In this document: positions 3,015-11,255 of the stretch, one piece after another
Layout: every line of letters starts with the position of its first letter
How positions within the stretch are numbered: the first letter of the stretch is position 1
Source of the DNA: Devosia sp.
GTDB taxonomy: Bacteria > Pseudomonadota > Alphaproteobacteria > Rhizobiales > Devosiaceae
DNA length: 53,657 bases
Assembly: GCA_030680995.1 (NCBI GenBank)
Contig: JAUXUM010000080.1
Span: forward strand, 1-53,657
Direction of reading: 5' to 3'
Program-made: the position numbers and the translations under genes
The notes under the pieces: generated by a model
What the model saw: the letters and a program-made list of their open reading frames with translations, nothing else
What the model was told of the DNA's origin: nothing
Databases searched by the model: none

Positions 3015-4004
3015 CTACTTGATCGCTACCGCTTGCCCCGTCTTCCGCGATTCGGTCGCAGCCTCGGCGAGCTTTTGCGCCTGGAGCCCGTCATGACCGT
3101 TGGCGCGGAGCTCGCCGCCCTGCTCGATCGTGTCGAGAAACGCCGCGATTTCAGCGGCATAGGCGGTGGCATAGCGATCGATGAAGAAGTTCTGGATGAC
3201 GTCGGCGGTGAAGCCGCCCGCATCGGCCCGCTCCAGCGTCGTCATGTGCACATTGCCGGCCCGCAGCATGCCCTTTGACCCGTGCACCTCGATACGCTGG
3301 TCGTAGCCATAGGTGGCGCGGCGCGAATTGGTGATGACCACGATCCTGCCCGAAGCCGTCTGCATTTGTACCGAGGCGGTGTCGACGTCCCCGGTCGCCT
3401 CGATCGCCGGATCGGTCAGAACGCTGCCCAGCGCGTGCACGACCACCAGCTCTTCGCCGAGCAAAAAGCGGGCCATATCAAAGTCGTGGATCATCATGTC
3501 GCGGTAGAGCCCGCCCGAGCGCTCGATATAGGAGACCGGCGGCGGCGCCGGATCGCGGCTGATGATGGTGATCAGCTCGATGTCGCCGATGGCGCCGGCC
3601 CGCAGCCGCTTCTCGAGGCTGGCGAAATTCGGGTCGTAGCGCCGGTTGAAGCCGATCATCAGCGGCACGCCGGCCTTCTCGACCACCGGCAGGCACTGCT
3701 CGATCCGCTCCACCGAGAGCGAAACCGGCTTCTCGCAGAGGATCGCCTTGCCCGCTTGTGCAGCTTTTTCAATAAGATCGGCATGGGTATCGGTGGGCGT
3801 GGCGATCAGCACCGCGTCGACATCCCTGGCGGCGATGATCTCCTCGACCGAGGCGACTCTGGCGCCGACCGCGGCGGCCAGCGCGCGGGCCGCTTCCGGC
3901 ATCGCGTCGGCCACATAGGCGACGCTGGCGCGGCCCGATCGGGCGATCGTATTTGCGTGCACCTTGCCGATCCGCCCCGCCCCGAGCACCCCGAACCGCA
4001 CCAT
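3015..4004 (-). CDS. iolG: Inositol 2-dehydrogenase (Gfo/Idh/MocA family)
   Basis: The 329-residue protein oxidises myo-inositol to scyllo-inosose with NAD+, the first step of inositol breakdown. It has an N-terminal Rossmann fold with GAGRIGKVH (residues 8-16), the EKP motif (91-93, Lys92) and RDMMIHDFDM, giving Asp169 and His173. This Lys/Asp/His set has the spacing of the catalytic residues known for Bacillus IolG. Length is normal for the family. It is transcribed divergently from iolC across a 170-base promoter region carrying two IolR-type operators. A mixed Gfo/Idh/MocA paralogue with another polyol substrate cannot be excluded from sequence alone, but the neighbourhood is decisive. 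In rhizobia the gene is also called idhA. Confidence 0.93.
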   Translation of the reverse strand: MVRFGVLGAGRIGKVHANTIARSGRASVAYVADAMPEAARALAAAVGARVASVEEIIAARDVDAVLIATPTDTHADLIEKAAQAGKAILCEKPVSLSVERIEQCLPVVEKAGVPLMIGFNRRYDPNFASLEKRLRAGAIGDIELITIISRDPAPPPVSYIERSGGLYRDMMIHDFDMARFLLGEELVVVHALGSVLTDPAIEATGDVDTASVQMQTASGRIVVITNSRRATYGYDQRIEVHGSKGMLRAGNVHMTTLERADAGGFTADVIQNFFIDRYATAYAAEIAAFLDTIEQGGELRANGHDGLQAQKLAEAATESRKTGQAVAIK

Positions 4005-4081: not shown

Positions 4082-4097
4082 GCCAATCATGCGTTTC

Positions 4098-4131
4098 GGA
4101 ATTGACGTTTCATTCGCGCGAGGGATACAAC
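4098..4131 (+). promoter_or_regulatory. Predicted iolC promoter with the -35 inside a second IolR-type site
   Basis: GGAATTGACGTTTC (4098-4111) is a GGAA-N6-TTCC site with one mismatch. Its central six bases are TTGACG, a good -35 hexamer, followed after 18 bases by TACAAC (4126-4131). A repressor bound here would cover the -35 directly. iolC starts 43 bases downstream of the -10. Confidence 0.5.
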
Positions 4132-4174
4132 GGCGCAAGACAAGTGTCCAGAGACGAATGAGGGAGACCGGACG

Positions 4175-6070
4175 ATGGTGGAGCCCAAGGGCGCGCAGCT
4201 CGATGTGATCACCATCGGGCGCGCCTCGGTCGATCTCTACGGCCAGCAGATCGGCAGCAGGCTGGAGGACATCGGCAGCTTCGCCAAATCGGTGGGCGGC
4301 TGCCCCTGCAACATCTCGGTGGGCACGGCGCGGCTGGGGCTTAGATCGGCGCTCGTCACCCGCGTCGGCAACGAGCAGATGGGCCGCTTCATCCGCGAGC
4401 AGCTCGACCGCGAGGGCGTCGAGACGCGCGGCATCGCCACCGACCCCGACAGGTTGACGGCACTGGTATTGCTGGCGGTCGAGGACGAGGGCGTTTCGCC
4501 CATGATCTTCTACCGCACCGACTGCGCCGACATGGCGTTGTCGGAAGACGATATCGACGAGGACTTTGTCGCCAGCGCGTCCTCGATCGTCGTCACCGGC
4601 ACCCATTTCTCCCGCGCCAATAGCGACGCCGCCCAGCGCAAGGCCATCCGCGTCGCCAAGGCCAACGGCCGCAAGGTGGTGTTCGACATCGACTACCGCC
4701 CCAACCTCTGGGGGCTGGCCGGCCACGCCGCCGGCTTCGAGCGCTATGTGAAATCCGACCGCGTCTCCGGGCAACTCGGAAGCGTGCTGCCCGATTGCGA
4801 TTTGATCGTCGGTACCGAGGAAGAGATCATGATCGCCTCGGGCGCCGACAACGTGCTGGCGGCGCTCAAGGCCATCCGCGCGGCAACCCCCGCGACCATT
4901 GTGCTCAAGCGCGGCGCCATGGGCTGCATCGTCTATGACGGTCCGATCCCGGACAACCTCGAAGCCGGTATCGTCGGCAAGGGTTTTCCCATCGAGGTCT
5001 ACAATGTGCTGGGCGCCGGCGACGCCTTCATGTCCGGCTTTCTGCGCGGCTGGCTCAAGGGCGAGCCGCTTGCGACCTGCGCCACCTGGGCCAATGCCTG
5101 CGGCGCCTTCGCGGTGAGCCGGCTGCTCTGCGCGCCGGAATATCCCACCTGGACCGAACTCAGCTATTTCCTCGAGCACGGCAGCAAGCACAAGACGCTG
5201 CGCAAGGACGAGGCGCTCAACCACATCCATTGGGCGACCACGCGGCGTGGCGACTGGCCCAAGCTGATGGCGCTCGCCATCGATCACCGCAAGCAGCTCG
5301 AGGACGTGGCGGGCGGAGCGCTCGACCGCATCGCCGATTTCAAGGTGCTGGCGGTCAGGGCCGCCGCGCGGGTCGCCGCCGGCCGTGCCGGTTTCGGCAT
5401 GCTGATCGACGACAAATACGGCCGCAAGGCGCTGTTCGCCGCGGCCAAAGAGGGTTTTTGGATCGGCAAGCCGATCGAGCTTCCCGGGTCGAGGCCGCTG
5501 CGGTTCGAGTTTTCGCAGGATCTGGGGAGCCGGTTGATCGAATGGCCGGTCGACCATTGCGCCAAGGTGCTGTGCTTTTATCATCCGGACGACCCCAAGG
5601 AGCTCAAGCACGAGCAGACCGAAAAGCTGCGCTCGGCCTACGAGGCGGCGCGCAAGGTGGGCCGCGAGATCCTGATCGAGATCGTCGCTTCCAAGAACGG
5701 GCCGGTGGACGACCGTACGGCGGCGCGGGCGCTGGGCGAGCTTTACGATGCCGGCCTGAAGCCGGACTGGTGGAAGCTCGAGCCACAGCCCACGACGAAG
5801 GCCTGGGCCGGAATCGACAATGTGATCACCTCGCGCGATCCGCTCTGCCGGGGCGTGGTGATGCTGGGGCTCGACGCCCCGATGGAGGCGCTGGCCGCGG
5901 GCTTTGCGACGGCAAAGGCCTCGCGCACGGTGCGCGGCTTCGCCGTCGGCCGCACCATCTTTGCGGATGCCGCCAAGGCGTGGTTTGCCGGGACGATGAG
6001 CGGCGAGGCGGCGGTCGCCGACATGGCCGACCGCTTCCAGGCGCTGGTGGACGTATGGGAGGGGAGTTGA
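4175..6070 (+). CDS. iolC: 5-dehydro-2-deoxygluconokinase fused to a DUF2090 aldolase-like domain
   Basis: This 631-residue fusion has an N-terminal PfkB-type sugar kinase (about residues 8-325), with the glycine-rich GGCPCNIS segment (41-48) and the catalytic NVLGAGDAF motif (Asp283). The kinase phosphorylates 5-dehydro-2-deoxygluconate in inositol catabolism. Residues about 355-631 form a DUF2090 domain (LAIDHRKQLE, LCFYHPDD, PDWWKLEPQP). DUF2090 resembles class I aldolase barrels, and such fusions are often annotated as a kinase plus 5-dehydro-2-deoxyphosphogluconate aldolase. That would supply the IolJ step, for which the window has no separate gene. ATG 4175 is preceded by GAGGGAGACC. 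The stand-alone Bacillus kinase is about 325 residues, so the doubled length is genuine fusion. Confidence 0.95.
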   Translation: MVEPKGAQLDVITIGRASVDLYGQQIGSRLEDIGSFAKSVGGCPCNISVGTARLGLRSALVTRVGNEQMGRFIREQLDREGVETRGIATDPDRLTALVLLAVEDEGVSPMIFYRTDCADMALSEDDIDEDFVASASSIVVTGTHFSRANSDAAQRKAIRVAKANGRKVVFDIDYRPNLWGLAGHAAGFERYVKSDRVSGQLGSVLPDCDLIVGTEEEIMIASGADNVLAALKAIRAATPATIVLKRGAMGCIVYDGPIPDNLEAGIVGKGFPIEVYNVLGAGDAFMSGFLRGWLKGEPLATCATWANACGAFAVSRLLCAPEYPTWTELSYFLEHGSKHKTLRKDEALNHIHWATTRRGDWPKLMALAIDHRKQLEDVAGGALDRIADFKVLAVRAAARVAAGRAGFGMLIDDKYGRKALFAAAKEGFWIGKPIELPGSRPLRFEFSQDLGSRLIEWPVDHCAKVLCFYHPDDPKELKHEQTEKLRSAYEAARKVGREILIEIVASKNGPVDDRTAARALGELYDAGLKPDWWKLEPQPTTKAWAGIDNVITSRDPLCRGVVMLGLDAPMEALAAGFATAKASRTVRGFAVGRTIFADAAKAWFAGTMSGEAAVADMADRFQALVDVWEGS

Positions 6071-6362: not shown

Positions 6363-8210
6363 ATGACACACTCAACAATCCGCCTCACCATGGCGCAGGC
6401 GCTGGCGAAATTCCTGGCCAGGCAGATGACCGTGATCGACGGCGAAACGCTGCCGCTGTTCGGCGGGGTGTTCGCCATCTTCGGCCACGGCAATGTCGCC
6501 GGGTTCGGGGAAGCGCTCTACCAGGTGCGCGACGAGTTGCCCACCTATCGCGCCCATAACGAGCAGGGCATGGCCCATGCCGCCATCGCCTTCGCCAAGG
6601 CCAGCTTCCGCCGCCGCATGATGGCCGCGACTTCCTCGATCGGCCCCGGCGCCACCAATATGGTGACCGCGGCGGCGCTGGCGCATGTGAACCGCCTGCC
6701 GCTGCTGCTGCTGCCCGGCGACGTCTTCGCCAACCGCGGCCCCGATCCGGTCCTGCAGCAGGTCGAGGATTTCGGCGACGGCACGGTTTCGGCCAATGAC
6801 GCCTTCCGCCCGGTATCGCGCTATTTCGACCGCATCACCCGGCCCGAGCAGATCATCCCGGCGCTGCGCCGCGCCATGCAGGTTCTGACCGACCCGGCCG
6901 AATGCGGACCGGTGACGCTGGCGCTCTGCCAGGACGTGCAGGCCGAGGCTTTCGACTATCCCGAGAGCTTCTTCGAGAAGAAGATCTGGATTCCGCGGCG
7001 GCCGGCGCCCGATGTGGGCGAACTGCACGAGGCCCTGGCCGCGCTCAAGCAGAGCCGCAAGCCGGTAATCATCGCCGGCGGCGGCGTGCTCTATTCGGAG
7101 GCGGCCGAGACGCTTGGGGCTTTCGCGGAAAAGCACGGCATCCCGGTAATGGAGACCAATGCGGGCAAATCGAGCCTGCCGCACGACCACCCGCTTAACA
7201 TGGGCTCGGTCGGAGTCACCGGCTCCTCTGCCAGCAACCTTCTGGCCGAGCAGGCCGACCTGGTGCTGGCGGTGGGCAGCCGGCTGCAGGATTTCACCAC
7301 CGGGAGCTGGGCCCTGTTCAAGGCCAAGGATGTGAAGATCGTCGGGCTCAACACGCAAGCCTTCGACGCCGGCAAGCACCGGGCGCTGCCGCTCGTGGCC
7401 GACGCCAAGGTAGGCCTCGAGCACCTGGAGCAGCACCTGGGCGGCTGGAAGACCTCGGACGCCTGGGTGGCGGCGGCCAAGGCGGCCAAGGCCGACTGGC
7501 TCCGGGCGGCCAAGGCCGTGACCGACCCGACCAATGCCCCGTTGCCCTCGGACGCGCAGGTGATCGGCGCCGTGCATCGGGCCCGCGGCTCGGGTGCGAC
7601 TTTGGTCTGCGCCTCGGGCGGGCTGCCGGGGGAGTTGCACAAGCTCTGGCCGGCCGGCGCGCCGGGCAGCTACCACATGGAATACGGCTATTCGACCATG
7701 GGCTACGAGATCGCCGGCGGGCTGGGGGTGAAGCTCGCCAAGCCCGATGCGGATGTCGTCGTCATGCTCGGCGACGGCAGCTACATGATGATGAACTCGG
7801 AGATCGCCACCTCGGTGATGCTGGGCGCCAAGCTCACCATCGTCGTACTCGACAACCGCGGCTTCGGCTGCATCAACCGGCTGCAGATGGCGACGGGCGG
7901 GGCCAACTTCAACAATTTGCTGAAGGACGCCAAGCACGAGGTGCTGCCGCAGATCGATTTCGCGGCGCATGCCGCCGCGATGGGGGCGGTGGCGCGCAAG
8001 GCGGGCTCGATCGCCGAACTCGAATCGGCGTTGCACGATGCGGCAAACGACGACCGCACCTCGGTGATCGTCATCGACACCGACCCGCTGATCTCGACCG
8101 ATGCCGGCGGGCACTGGTGGGATGTGGCGGTGCCCGAGGTTTCGGCGCGGCCGCAGGTGAACGCGGCGCGCAAGCAGTACGAGGAAGCGCTGAAGGGGCG
8201 GCGGCTTTAG
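6363..8210 (+). CDS. iolD: 3D-(3,5/4)-trihydroxycyclohexane-1,2-dione acylhydrolase
   Basis: IolD is a thiamine-diphosphate enzyme that hydrolytically opens the diketo-inositol ring to 5-deoxy-glucuronate. The 615-residue protein has the three ThDP-enzyme domains: an N-terminal PYR domain with the activating Glu67 in AHNEQGMAHAA, a central domain, and a C-terminal PP domain with the GDGS motif (residue 470) leading to VVLDNRGFG, the diphosphate- and Mg-binding segment. The track start at 6249 lies within intergenic sequence; ATG 6363 has an excellent GGGAGGAAAC ribosome site and gives the usual IolD length. It is third in the pathway order and lies downstream of iolC after a long hairpin. Confidence 0.95.
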   Translation: MTHSTIRLTMAQALAKFLARQMTVIDGETLPLFGGVFAIFGHGNVAGFGEALYQVRDELPTYRAHNEQGMAHAAIAFAKASFRRRMMAATSSIGPGATNMVTAAALAHVNRLPLLLLPGDVFANRGPDPVLQQVEDFGDGTVSANDAFRPVSRYFDRITRPEQIIPALRRAMQVLTDPAECGPVTLALCQDVQAEAFDYPESFFEKKIWIPRRPAPDVGELHEALAALKQSRKPVIIAGGGVLYSEAAETLGAFAEKHGIPVMETNAGKSSLPHDHPLNMGSVGVTGSSASNLLAEQADLVLAVGSRLQDFTTGSWALFKAKDVKIVGLNTQAFDAGKHRALPLVADAKVGLEHLEQHLGGWKTSDAWVAAAKAAKADWLRAAKAVTDPTNAPLPSDAQVIGAVHRARGSGATLVCASGGLPGELHKLWPAGAPGSYHMEYGYSTMGYEIAGGLGVKLAKPDADVVVMLGDGSYMMMNSEIATSVMLGAKLTIVVLDNRGFGCINRLQMATGGANFNNLLKDAKHEVLPQIDFAAHAAAMGAVARKAGSIAELESALHDAANDDRTSVIVIDTDPLISTDAGGHWWDVAVPEVSARPQVNAARKQYEEALKGRRL

Positions 8211-8335: not shown

Positions 8336-9223
8336 ATGACCATCCGCATTGGCGCCAACCCGATTGGCTGGAGCAATGACGACATGCTGGAGATCGGCGG
8401 CGACATTTCGCTCGGGCAGTGCCTGAGCGAGGCCCGCGCGGCCGGCTTCACCGGCATGGAGCTGGGCAACAAGTTCCCGCGCACTGCCGGAGAGCTGCGG
8501 CCGATCCTTGCGGCGCACGGGCACGATCTGGTCTCGGGCTGGTATTCGGTGGAGCTGCTGGTCCGCGACGTCGAGGCCGAGTGGCAGGCGAGCCGGCCGC
8601 ATGCGACCCTGCTCCGGGAAATGGGGTGCGAGGCGATGATCCTCGCCGAAACCTCCAACGCCATCCACGGGCGGAAGGGGACGCCGCTCTCGGCCCGCCC
8701 GCTGTTGCCCAAGGCCGAGTGGAAGCAATGGGCGCGGCGGCTCTCGGAGTTCTCGCGGCGTTTGAAGGACGAGGACGGGCTGCAGGCCGTCTATCACTAC
8801 CACATGGGCACCATCGTCCAGGCCGAGAACGAGATCGACCGCATGATGGAGCTGACCACCGACGCGCTGGGGCTGCTGCTCGATACCGGCCACGCCGTCT
8901 ATGGCGGCGCCGACCCGGTGCGGCTGGCGCGGCACTATCGCCAGCGCATCCACCATGTGCATGCCAAGGATGTGCGCGAGGATGTGATGTGGCAAAGCCG
9001 CAGGGAGGACTGGAGCTTTCTGGACTCGGTGCTGGCCGGCGTCTACACCGTTCCCGGCGACGGGCTGATCGACTACCCTCAAATCTTCCGCGCGCTCGAA
9101 GGTTATTCGGGCTGGGTGGTGGTCGAGGCCGAGCAGGACCCGAAAAAGGCCATCCCGGCCGAATACTCAAGGCTCGGCTACAACAACCTCACCCGGTTCC
9201 TCAAGGAAGGCGGCCTCATTTGA
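8336..9223 (+). CDS. iolE: Inosose (2-keto-myo-inositol) dehydratase
   Basis: IolE removes water from scyllo-inosose to give the trihydroxycyclohexanedione that IolD uses. The 295-residue protein is a xylose-isomerase-like TIM barrel starting MTIRIGANPIGWSNDD. Likely metal ligands are in LLLDTGHAVYGGADP (Asp183, His186), the HHVHAKD motif (around residue 206) and VVVEAEQDP near the C-terminus. The track ORF starts too early; ATG 8336 has an AGAAGGAAC ribosome site and matches family length. The stop TGA overlaps a TTG start of the following small gene, so the two are probably translationally coupled. Confidence 0.95.
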   Translation: MTIRIGANPIGWSNDDMLEIGGDISLGQCLSEARAAGFTGMELGNKFPRTAGELRPILAAHGHDLVSGWYSVELLVRDVEAEWQASRPHATLLREMGCEAMILAETSNAIHGRKGTPLSARPLLPKAEWKQWARRLSEFSRRLKDEDGLQAVYHYHMGTIVQAENEIDRMMELTTDALGLLLDTGHAVYGGADPVRLARHYRQRIHHVHAKDVREDVMWQSRREDWSFLDSVLAGVYTVPGDGLIDYPQIFRALEGYSGWVVVEAEQDPKKAIPAEYSRLGYNNLTRFLKEGGLI

Positions 9224-9447
9224 AACAAACCGAACTCGACTGGTTCCGGCCGCTATGGCGGCGCGTGGCGGTGACCGTCTTCGTCGCCGTCTGGTTCGCC
9301 TGGGAGGTCCTGTGGAATCAGGAACAGCTCTGGATGGCGATCACCGGCCTGGCGCTGGCCTATGCGGTGTGGAACTTCTTCATCAAATTCGAGCCGCGCG
9401 ACAGCAAGCCGGACGAGGACGGAGACAATGGCAAACCTCAGGCTTAG
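9220..9447 (+). CDS. Small one- or two-TM membrane protein in the iol operon (DUF3329-like)
   Basis: This 75-residue gene is hidden in the track inside a long iolE shadow ORF. Its TTG start (9220-9222) overlaps the iolE stop as TTGA, and AAGGAAGGCGG just upstream is a strong ribosome site. The protein begins LKQTELDWFRPLWRRVAV, has two hydrophobic stretches (about residues 13-28 and 36-54) and a charged, Asp-rich tail. The FRPLWRR start followed by two helices recalls the small DUF3329 proteins of alphaproteobacteria; this is by recall, not search. Its end overlaps iolB by 20 bases, so it is locked into the operon. It may be an inner-membrane accessory of inositol uptake or an unrelated passenger. 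Confidence 0.7.
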   Translation: MKQTELDWFRPLWRRVAVTVFVAVWFAWEVLWNQEQLWMAITGLALAYAVWNFFIKFEPRDSKPDEDGDNGKPQA

Positions 9448-10222
9448 GCCGAAGGCCGCGACCGGCCTGGTCCATCACGTCACCCCGCAAAGCGCCGGCT
9501 GGACCTATGTCGGCTTCGACCTCTGGAAGCTCGCGCCAGGCGAAACCGCGCGCGGCGGCCTGCCCGATCGCGAGGTATGCCTGGTGCTGGTTTCCGGCAG
9601 GGCGGGGGTGAGCGTCGACGGCAAGGATCTGGGCGAACTCGGCGGCCGCATGAGCCCCTTCGACGGCCCCGGCTTTTCGGTCTATGCCCCCGCCGGCGCC
9701 AACTGGCAGGTCGCGGCGACGACGGACCTCGAACTCGCCGTCTGCACCGCGCCCGGCCGGACCGGCTCGCACCCGGTGCGCGTCATCGGGCCCGGTGATG
9801 TCGAGCGGCTGAGCCGCGGCACGGGCACCAATACCCGCTACCCCGCCAACATCCTCCCCGAGACCGCTCCCGCCGACTCCCTGCTGGTGGTCGAGGTGAT
9901 CACCCCCGGCGGGCACACCTCCTCCTACCCGCCGCACAAGCACGACCGGGACGACCTGCCGCGCGAGAGCCTGCTCGAGGAGACCTACTACCACCGGTTT
10001 TCGAAGCCGCAGGGTTTCGGCTTCCAGCGCGTCTATACCGACGACCGCGGCCTCGACGAGACCGTGCTGATCGAGGATGGCGATGTGGTGATGGTGCCGC
10101 GCGGCTATCATCCGGTGGCGACGGTGCATGGCTACGACATCTATTACCTGAATGTCATGGCCGGGCCGAAGCGGACCTGGAAGTTCTACAACGCGCCCGA
10201 GCATGAGTGGATGCTGCAGTAA
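9428..10222 (+). CDS. iolB: 5-deoxy-glucuronate isomerase
   Basis: IolB converts 5-deoxy-glucuronate to 5-dehydro-2-deoxygluconate, the substrate of IolC. The 264-residue protein has the KduI/IolB bicupin fold. The metal-binding motif is visible in the C-terminal cupin: SSYPPHKHDRDD with paired histidines, ETYYHRF, and the late GYHPVATVHGYDIYYLNVMAGP. ATG 9428 is chosen because GACGGAGAC precedes it and it starts at the expected MANLRLRP; the track start is too early. It overlaps the upstream small gene by 20 bases and ends the iol operon, before REP-like element E. Confidence 0.95.
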   Translation: MANLRLRPKAATGLVHHVTPQSAGWTYVGFDLWKLAPGETARGGLPDREVCLVLVSGRAGVSVDGKDLGELGGRMSPFDGPGFSVYAPAGANWQVAATTDLELAVCTAPGRTGSHPVRVIGPGDVERLSRGTGTNTRYPANILPETAPADSLLVVEVITPGGHTSSYPPHKHDRDDLPRESLLEETYYHRFSKPQGFGFQRVYTDDRGLDETVLIEDGDVVMVPRGYHPVATVHGYDIYYLNVMAGPKRTWKFYNAPEHEWMLQ

Positions 10223-10400: not shown

Positions 10401-11255
10401 ATGGCCGCCTCCAACTTCATCCTCACCCTCAGTTGTGCCGACCGGCCGGGCATTGTCGCGGCGGTAACCACCGAGCTGGCCGCGCTCGACGCCAATATCG
10501 CCGAATCCAACCAGTTCTGGGATCGCGAGACCGGGCAGTTCTTCATGCGGCTGGCTTTCACCGCCCCCGAGGACGTCGGCCGCGAGACGCTGGAGCGGGC
10601 GCTACAGCCGGCGGCCGAGCGCTTCGGCATGCGCACCACGCTCGCCGACGAGGCGCGGCGCAAGAAGATCCTGGTGATGGTCAGCAAGTTCGACCATGCC
10701 ATGCTGCATCTGCTCTATCAGATCCGGGTCGGCTGGCTCGACGCGGAGGTGGTGGCCATCGTCTCCAACCATGAGCATTCGCGCGCCACGGCGGACTATG
10801 AAGCCATCCCCTTCCACCTGCTGCCGGTGGGCAAGAACGGCAAGGCCGAGCAGGAGGAACAGGTCCTGGGCCTGGTCAAGGAGACCGGCGCCGACCTCGT
10901 GGTGCTGGCCCGCTACATGCAGATCCTTTCCGACAGGTTCGCCACCCGGCTCTACGGCCGGATCATCAACATCCACCACTCGTTCCTGCCCTCGTTCAAG
11001 GGCGCCAGGCCCTATCACCAGGCGCATGAGCGCGGCGTCAAGATCATCGGCGCCACCGCGCACTACGTGACGCCCGAGCTGGACGAAGGCCCGATCATCG
11101 AGCAGGACACGGCGCGGGTGAACCACGCCATGAGCCCGGACGACCTGATCGCGGTGGGGCGCGATATCGAATCGCGGGTACTGGCGCGGGCGGTGAAGCT
11201 GCACCTGGAGTCGCGGGTGATGCTCAATGGGAAGCGGACGGTGGTGTTCGGGTAG
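10401..11255 (+). CDS. purU: Formyltetrahydrofolate deformylase
   Basis: PurU hydrolyses 10-formyl-tetrahydrofolate to formate and tetrahydrofolate in one-carbon and purine metabolism. The 284-residue protein has an N-terminal ACT domain (about residues 4-75; LSCADRPGIVAAVT) and a formyltransferase-like domain (about 90-275). The catalytic Asn-His pair is in INIHHSFLPSF (Asn190, His192) and the Asp in HYVTPELDEGPIIEQD. ATG 10401 is used with CCGGAGACC upstream; the track start at 10386 is a TTG inside that site. It appears monocistronic. Confidence 0.95.
   Translation: MAASNFILTLSCADRPGIVAAVTTELAALDANIAESNQFWDRETGQFFMRLAFTAPEDVGRETLERALQPAAERFGMRTTLADEARRKKILVMVSKFDHAMLHLLYQIRVGWLDAEVVAIVSNHEHSRATADYEAIPFHLLPVGKNGKAEQEEQVLGLVKETGADLVVLARYMQILSDRFATRLYGRIINIHHSFLPSFKGARPYHQAHERGVKIIGATAHYVTPELDEGPIIEQDTARVNHAMSPDDLIAVGRDIESRVLARAVKLHLESRVMLNGKRTVVFG

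Follow-up and report, generated by a model that had tools for sequence, protein, structure and literature searches.

The window analysed here, a 53,657-nt stretch of Devosia sp. DNA, carries an array of inositol (iol) genes in which a short open reading frame, here called smp, lies between iolE and iolB. Does this frame encode a protein and, if so, is that protein connected with the use of inositol? Much is already known of the soluble part of the inositol pathway; a conserved membrane protein co-produced with the pathway enzymes would be a missing part.

A small open reading frame overlaps both iolE and iolB

The features of the window that bear on this question are as follows.

3015..4004, reverse strand: iolG-like gene (inositol 2-dehydrogenase), oriented divergently to iolC; named from its sequence
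4175..6070, forward strand: iolC (kinase/aldolase); NF047869, over the NCBIfam cut-off
6363..8210, forward strand: iolD; TIGR04377, over the NCBIfam cut-off
8336..9223, forward strand: iolE, upstream neighbour of smp; TIGR04379, over the NCBIfam cut-off
9203..9210, forward strand: AAGGAAGG, resembling a ribosome site, inside iolE and 9 nt before the smp TTG
9220..9223, forward strand: TTGA at which the smp start TTG (9220-9222) overlaps the iolE stop codon TGA (9221-9223)
9220..9447, forward strand: smp, small membrane-protein gene; starts at TTG, 75 aa with two membrane helices predicted and an acidic proline-containing tail
9415..9419, forward strand: GAGGA within the smp frame, putative ribosome site for iolB, with an 8-nt spacer
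9428..9447, forward strand: 20-nt overlap of smp and iolB, whose ATG is at 9428; length common to all iolB-linked genus-mates examined
9428..10222, forward strand: iolB, downstream neighbour of smp; TIGR04378, over the NCBIfam cut-off
10401..11255, forward strand: purU-like formyltetrahydrofolate deformylase gene, 3' of iolB; name from sequence

An RpiR-type regulator-like gene at 879-1739 lies near the iol array and, judged by eye, may control it.

The smp product has 75 residues and reads M/LKQTELDWFRPLWRRVAVTVFVAVWFAWEVLWNQEQLWMAITGLALAYAVWNFFIKFEPRDSKPDEDGDNGKPQA in the translation of the window, the frame remaining open through to the TAG at 9445-9447. The first-pass annotation had described the TTGA overlap with iolE, a strong ribosome site and the 20-nt overlap with iolB, and all three are present, the second as the ribosome-site-like AAGGAAGG. 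Read from the sequence, translational coupling of smp with iolE and iolB is likely. Ribosomes ending iolE would restart at the TTGA and translate smp, those ending smp would feed the iolB start, and smp would thereby be produced alongside the inositol enzymes.

The smp frame has the hallmarks of a gene

In a GC-rich genome the smp frame could also be a shadow ORF that stays open by chance, and it is indeed open from 8419 inside iolE, running for 342 codons, most of them within that gene. Because the frame is also open inside iolE, its open length is no argument for smp. However, both codon-position GC and residue composition turn gene-like at 9220. Codon-position GC changes there from 0.89/0.69/0.44 in the shadow portion to 0.61/0.40/0.83 in smp, close to the values of the neighbouring iolE (0.67/0.44/0.88) and iolB (0.69/0.48/0.89), and R, G, P and A together fall from 63% to 25% of the residues.

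Pairwise dN/dS of smp was 0.04 to 0.60 in frame, indicating purifying selection, and when the same alignments were read in the other two frames dN mostly exceeded dS. These estimates excluded the last 24 nt, which cover the whole iolB overlap in most genera and only part of it in genus g15. Broken reading frames at this site in relatives, named by the first-pass annotation as what would refute its proposal, were looked for, and an internal stop was found in none of the 80 iolB-adjacent family copies. The shadow-ORF explanation was rejected on the frame-specific dN/dS and the GC switch at 9220; it is refuted as well by the existence of homologues, conserved in 28 genera of the order, and we consider it scarcely credible. 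The GC switch, the homologues and the dN/dS values bear out the earlier proposal of a real gene, and it is virtually certain that smp is protein coding.

smp belongs to an existing family without an assigned function

Homologues of smp were found in 17 of 18 genus-mates, in 109 of 136 Devosiaceae genomes (a count that leaves out one very weak match in G019) and, across the order, in 100 of 398 genomes spanning the 28 genera, with pairwise E values of the window protein to its relatives down to 1.6e-21. In family alignments R15 is invariant and W25, E29, W38 and Y48 are nearly so; smp carries the core F-R-P-L-W-R-R ... W...E ... W ... A-Y-x-x-W of an unnamed alphaproteobacterial family of small proteins encoded between iolE and iolB. 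No relatives were found when contigs of genomes were searched with the single window protein, and a search with a closer smp alignment returned 11 named loci, mainly Devosia. Similarly, a search of plasmids gave no match to the window protein and 78 records with a homologue from G103 as the query. Automatic gene callers do find smp in several relatives, and it is already in public records of related genomes, as a hypothetical or DUF3329 protein. The family to which smp belongs therefore already exists, and it lacks an assigned function.

The first-pass annotation had proposed a search of the DUF3329 profile (PF11808, PhoR). A search of the Pfam and NCBIfam profiles gave no family above its cut-off for smp, and PF11808 itself did not match the window protein. 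The best PF11808 score among smp relatives was 12.9 bits, far under the Pfam gathering cut-off of 27.1 bits, and membership of this family was rejected. The likeness lies in a short hydrophobic region and in a name: two Nitratireductor relatives of smp are called "DUF3329 domain-containing protein" by NCBI, whereas no smp member reaches 13 bits. This naming is probably the source of the DUF3329 idea.

smp recurs beside inositol genes in different arrangements

In 80 of the 109 Devosiaceae carriers, smp immediately precedes iolB in the same orientation; in the rest it lies elsewhere. The coupling geometry proposed for the window is conserved, the overlap with iolB being exactly 20 nt in all the linked copies that were measured from its own genus (g1) and from genera g3 and g7, and 56-59 nt in genus g15; in other genera the two genes are separated by short gaps, one of them longer. 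Comparison of iolE-iolB junctions confirmed that the position recurs in other families and in Rhodobacterales, with the order iolE-smp-iolB in Devosia species, Nitratireductor, Jiella and the rhodobacterial Aestuarium. The proteins of Nitratireductor kimnyeongensis (WP_246638006.1), Jiella pelagia (WP_268879201.1) and Aestuarium zhoushanense (AUJ65826.1) resemble smp in being encoded between iolE and iolB, in their size (64-68 aa) and F-R-P-L-W-x-R ... W...E ... layout, and in the start/stop overlaps or short gaps of their genes with iol genes. They differ from it in sequence, at about 23-35% identity, and are annotated as "DUF3329 domain-containing protein" or "hypothetical protein."

Other arrangements also join smp to the pathway. 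A class-level relative (G732) has the order iolG-smp-iolB plus a second smp-iolB pair, and its two smp copies (L115 and L121) each lie directly 5' of their own iolB. On pSymB of Sinorhizobium meliloti and on one Rhizobium leguminosarum plasmid, smp lies opposite iolG.

The iolE gene upstream of smp belongs to two lineages, and smp and iolB stay paired with both. The window iolE shares approximately 38% identity with that of most genus-mates, compared with 77% and 70% with those of loci L012 and L023, respectively. The TTGA overlap is also present in L012, whose iolE is of the same lineage as that of the window. The lineage difference from most genus-mates is confined to iolE, with iolD, iolB and smp lacking it; because only iolE differs in this way, the sequences suggest that iolE may have been swapped out within the operon.

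smp was also found in other surroundings. In six genus-mates it lies away from iolB, near purU, an EamA-type transporter gene or an SDR gene, and in several relatives without a linked iolB it directly precedes a purU-like gene. In other genera it lies between amidohydrolase (hydantoinase-like) and M20 hydrolase genes, or overlaps an ABC permease gene, a polyamine-type ABC permease being among its neighbours. One copy (L101, 4306-4512) directly follows an amidohydrolase (hydantoinase-like) gene and precedes an M20-family hydrolase gene, and another (L106, about 4093-4308) precedes an M20-family hydrolase gene; this neighbourhood is another catabolic operon.

smp and iolB occur together in most carrier genomes

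Across the order, iolB was present in 95 of 100 smp carriers versus 72 of 298 noncarriers, and by genus in 26 of 28 smp-carrying genera versus 33 of 114 others, both comparisons being uncorrected for ancestry. Within the Devosiaceae, the odds ratio with smp was 30 for iolB, compared with 10 for the control gene xylA (xylose isomerase). Since the control also gives an odds ratio of 10, part of the association between smp and iolB reflects lineage and genome completeness, and co-occurrence is weakened as proof of function. Three genomes (G004, G030 and G031) have smp with neither iolB nor iolD over the cut-off, and two (G022 and G029) have iol genes and no smp.

smp is predicted to form a two-helix membrane protein

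The hydropathy profile of smp has two peaks, at about residues 16-32 and 37-57. An AlphaFold model of low confidence (pLDDT 68, pTM 0.44) places helices at about 7-32 and 36-54, which suggests a two-helix hairpin. Searches of the PDB by sequence and by fold gave nothing significant for smp. Of the earlier description of a small membrane protein, the gene is real and the membrane part is probable, since the hydropathy peaks and the model agree with a small inner-membrane protein with two predicted helices. Because arginines precede helix 1, the positive-inside rule would place both termini in the cytoplasm, with the helical hairpin in the inner membrane.

Possible roles of smp

The first-pass annotation had held that conservation in this position would point to a role in inositol use. 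Linkages to iol genes recur in different arrangements, and for this reason a role connected with inositol use is, on the genomic evidence, the single most likely one for smp, with roughly an even chance of being correct. That smp serves inositol use only is unestablished, because it also occupies non-iol neighbourhoods and is retained in a handful of genomes that lack iol genes. The recurrent linkage partly supports the earlier suggestion, and the purU, hydantoinase-like, EamA and ABC-permease contexts, together with the three genomes without the pathway, count against it. A stronger version, in which smp is a dedicated inner-membrane component of inositol use across the Alphaproteobacteria (Devosia and its relatives, rhizobia and Rhodobacterales), such as a regulatory subunit of the inositol transporter, is put forward tentatively and may well be wrong.

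The same non-iol contexts (purU, hydantoinase/M20-hydrolase, EamA and polyamine-type ABC permease genes) fit a membrane protein of general function, in envelope or membrane homeostasis, that is unrelated to inositol and has settled in catabolic operons for steady coupled expression. Its retention in genomes without iol genes and its co-occurrence with xylA also favour such a function, which we regard as quite possible, if short of probable. However, a general function does not sit easily with the way smp recurs, across distinct families and orders, beside various iol genes (iolE-smp-iolB, iolG-smp-iolB and divergent iolG), or with the presence of iolB in nearly all carriers of the order. The tight overlaps with iolB, of 20 or 56-59 nt, would suit a translated leader that only sets the rate of iolB translation and yields an inert peptide, but purifying selection acts on the protein sequence of smp and conserved homologues lie far from iolB, making this explanation very improbable.

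Inositol use has been reported for rhizobia such as S. meliloti and R. leguminosarum (PMC9430895). A large survey of iol genes skipped hypothetical genes that showed homology to neither Iol enzymes nor transporters (PMC9430895); if smp is a dedicated inositol component, such surveys would have overlooked it, because unassigned hypothetical genes were left out. In the literature library searched, we found no paper that pairs DUF3329 with inositol, and none that mentions a small membrane protein together with iolE and iolB or describes smp. The function-less family gains an operon link here, and should the function of smp be general, it still gains a clear set of operon contexts.

Returning to a role in inositol use, smp is probably a small accessory protein, which would bind and tune or stabilise a transporter or another membrane partner during inositol use. 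This mechanism is put forward tentatively from its size, predicted topology and neighbours, and we consider a transporter as the partner unlikely. The accessory role is modelled on other small operon-encoded membrane proteins. KdpF, AcrZ and MgtS are small accessory membrane proteins of transporters, and, with no sequence relation claimed, they resemble smp in being short, membrane spanning and co-expressed with metabolic or transport functions.
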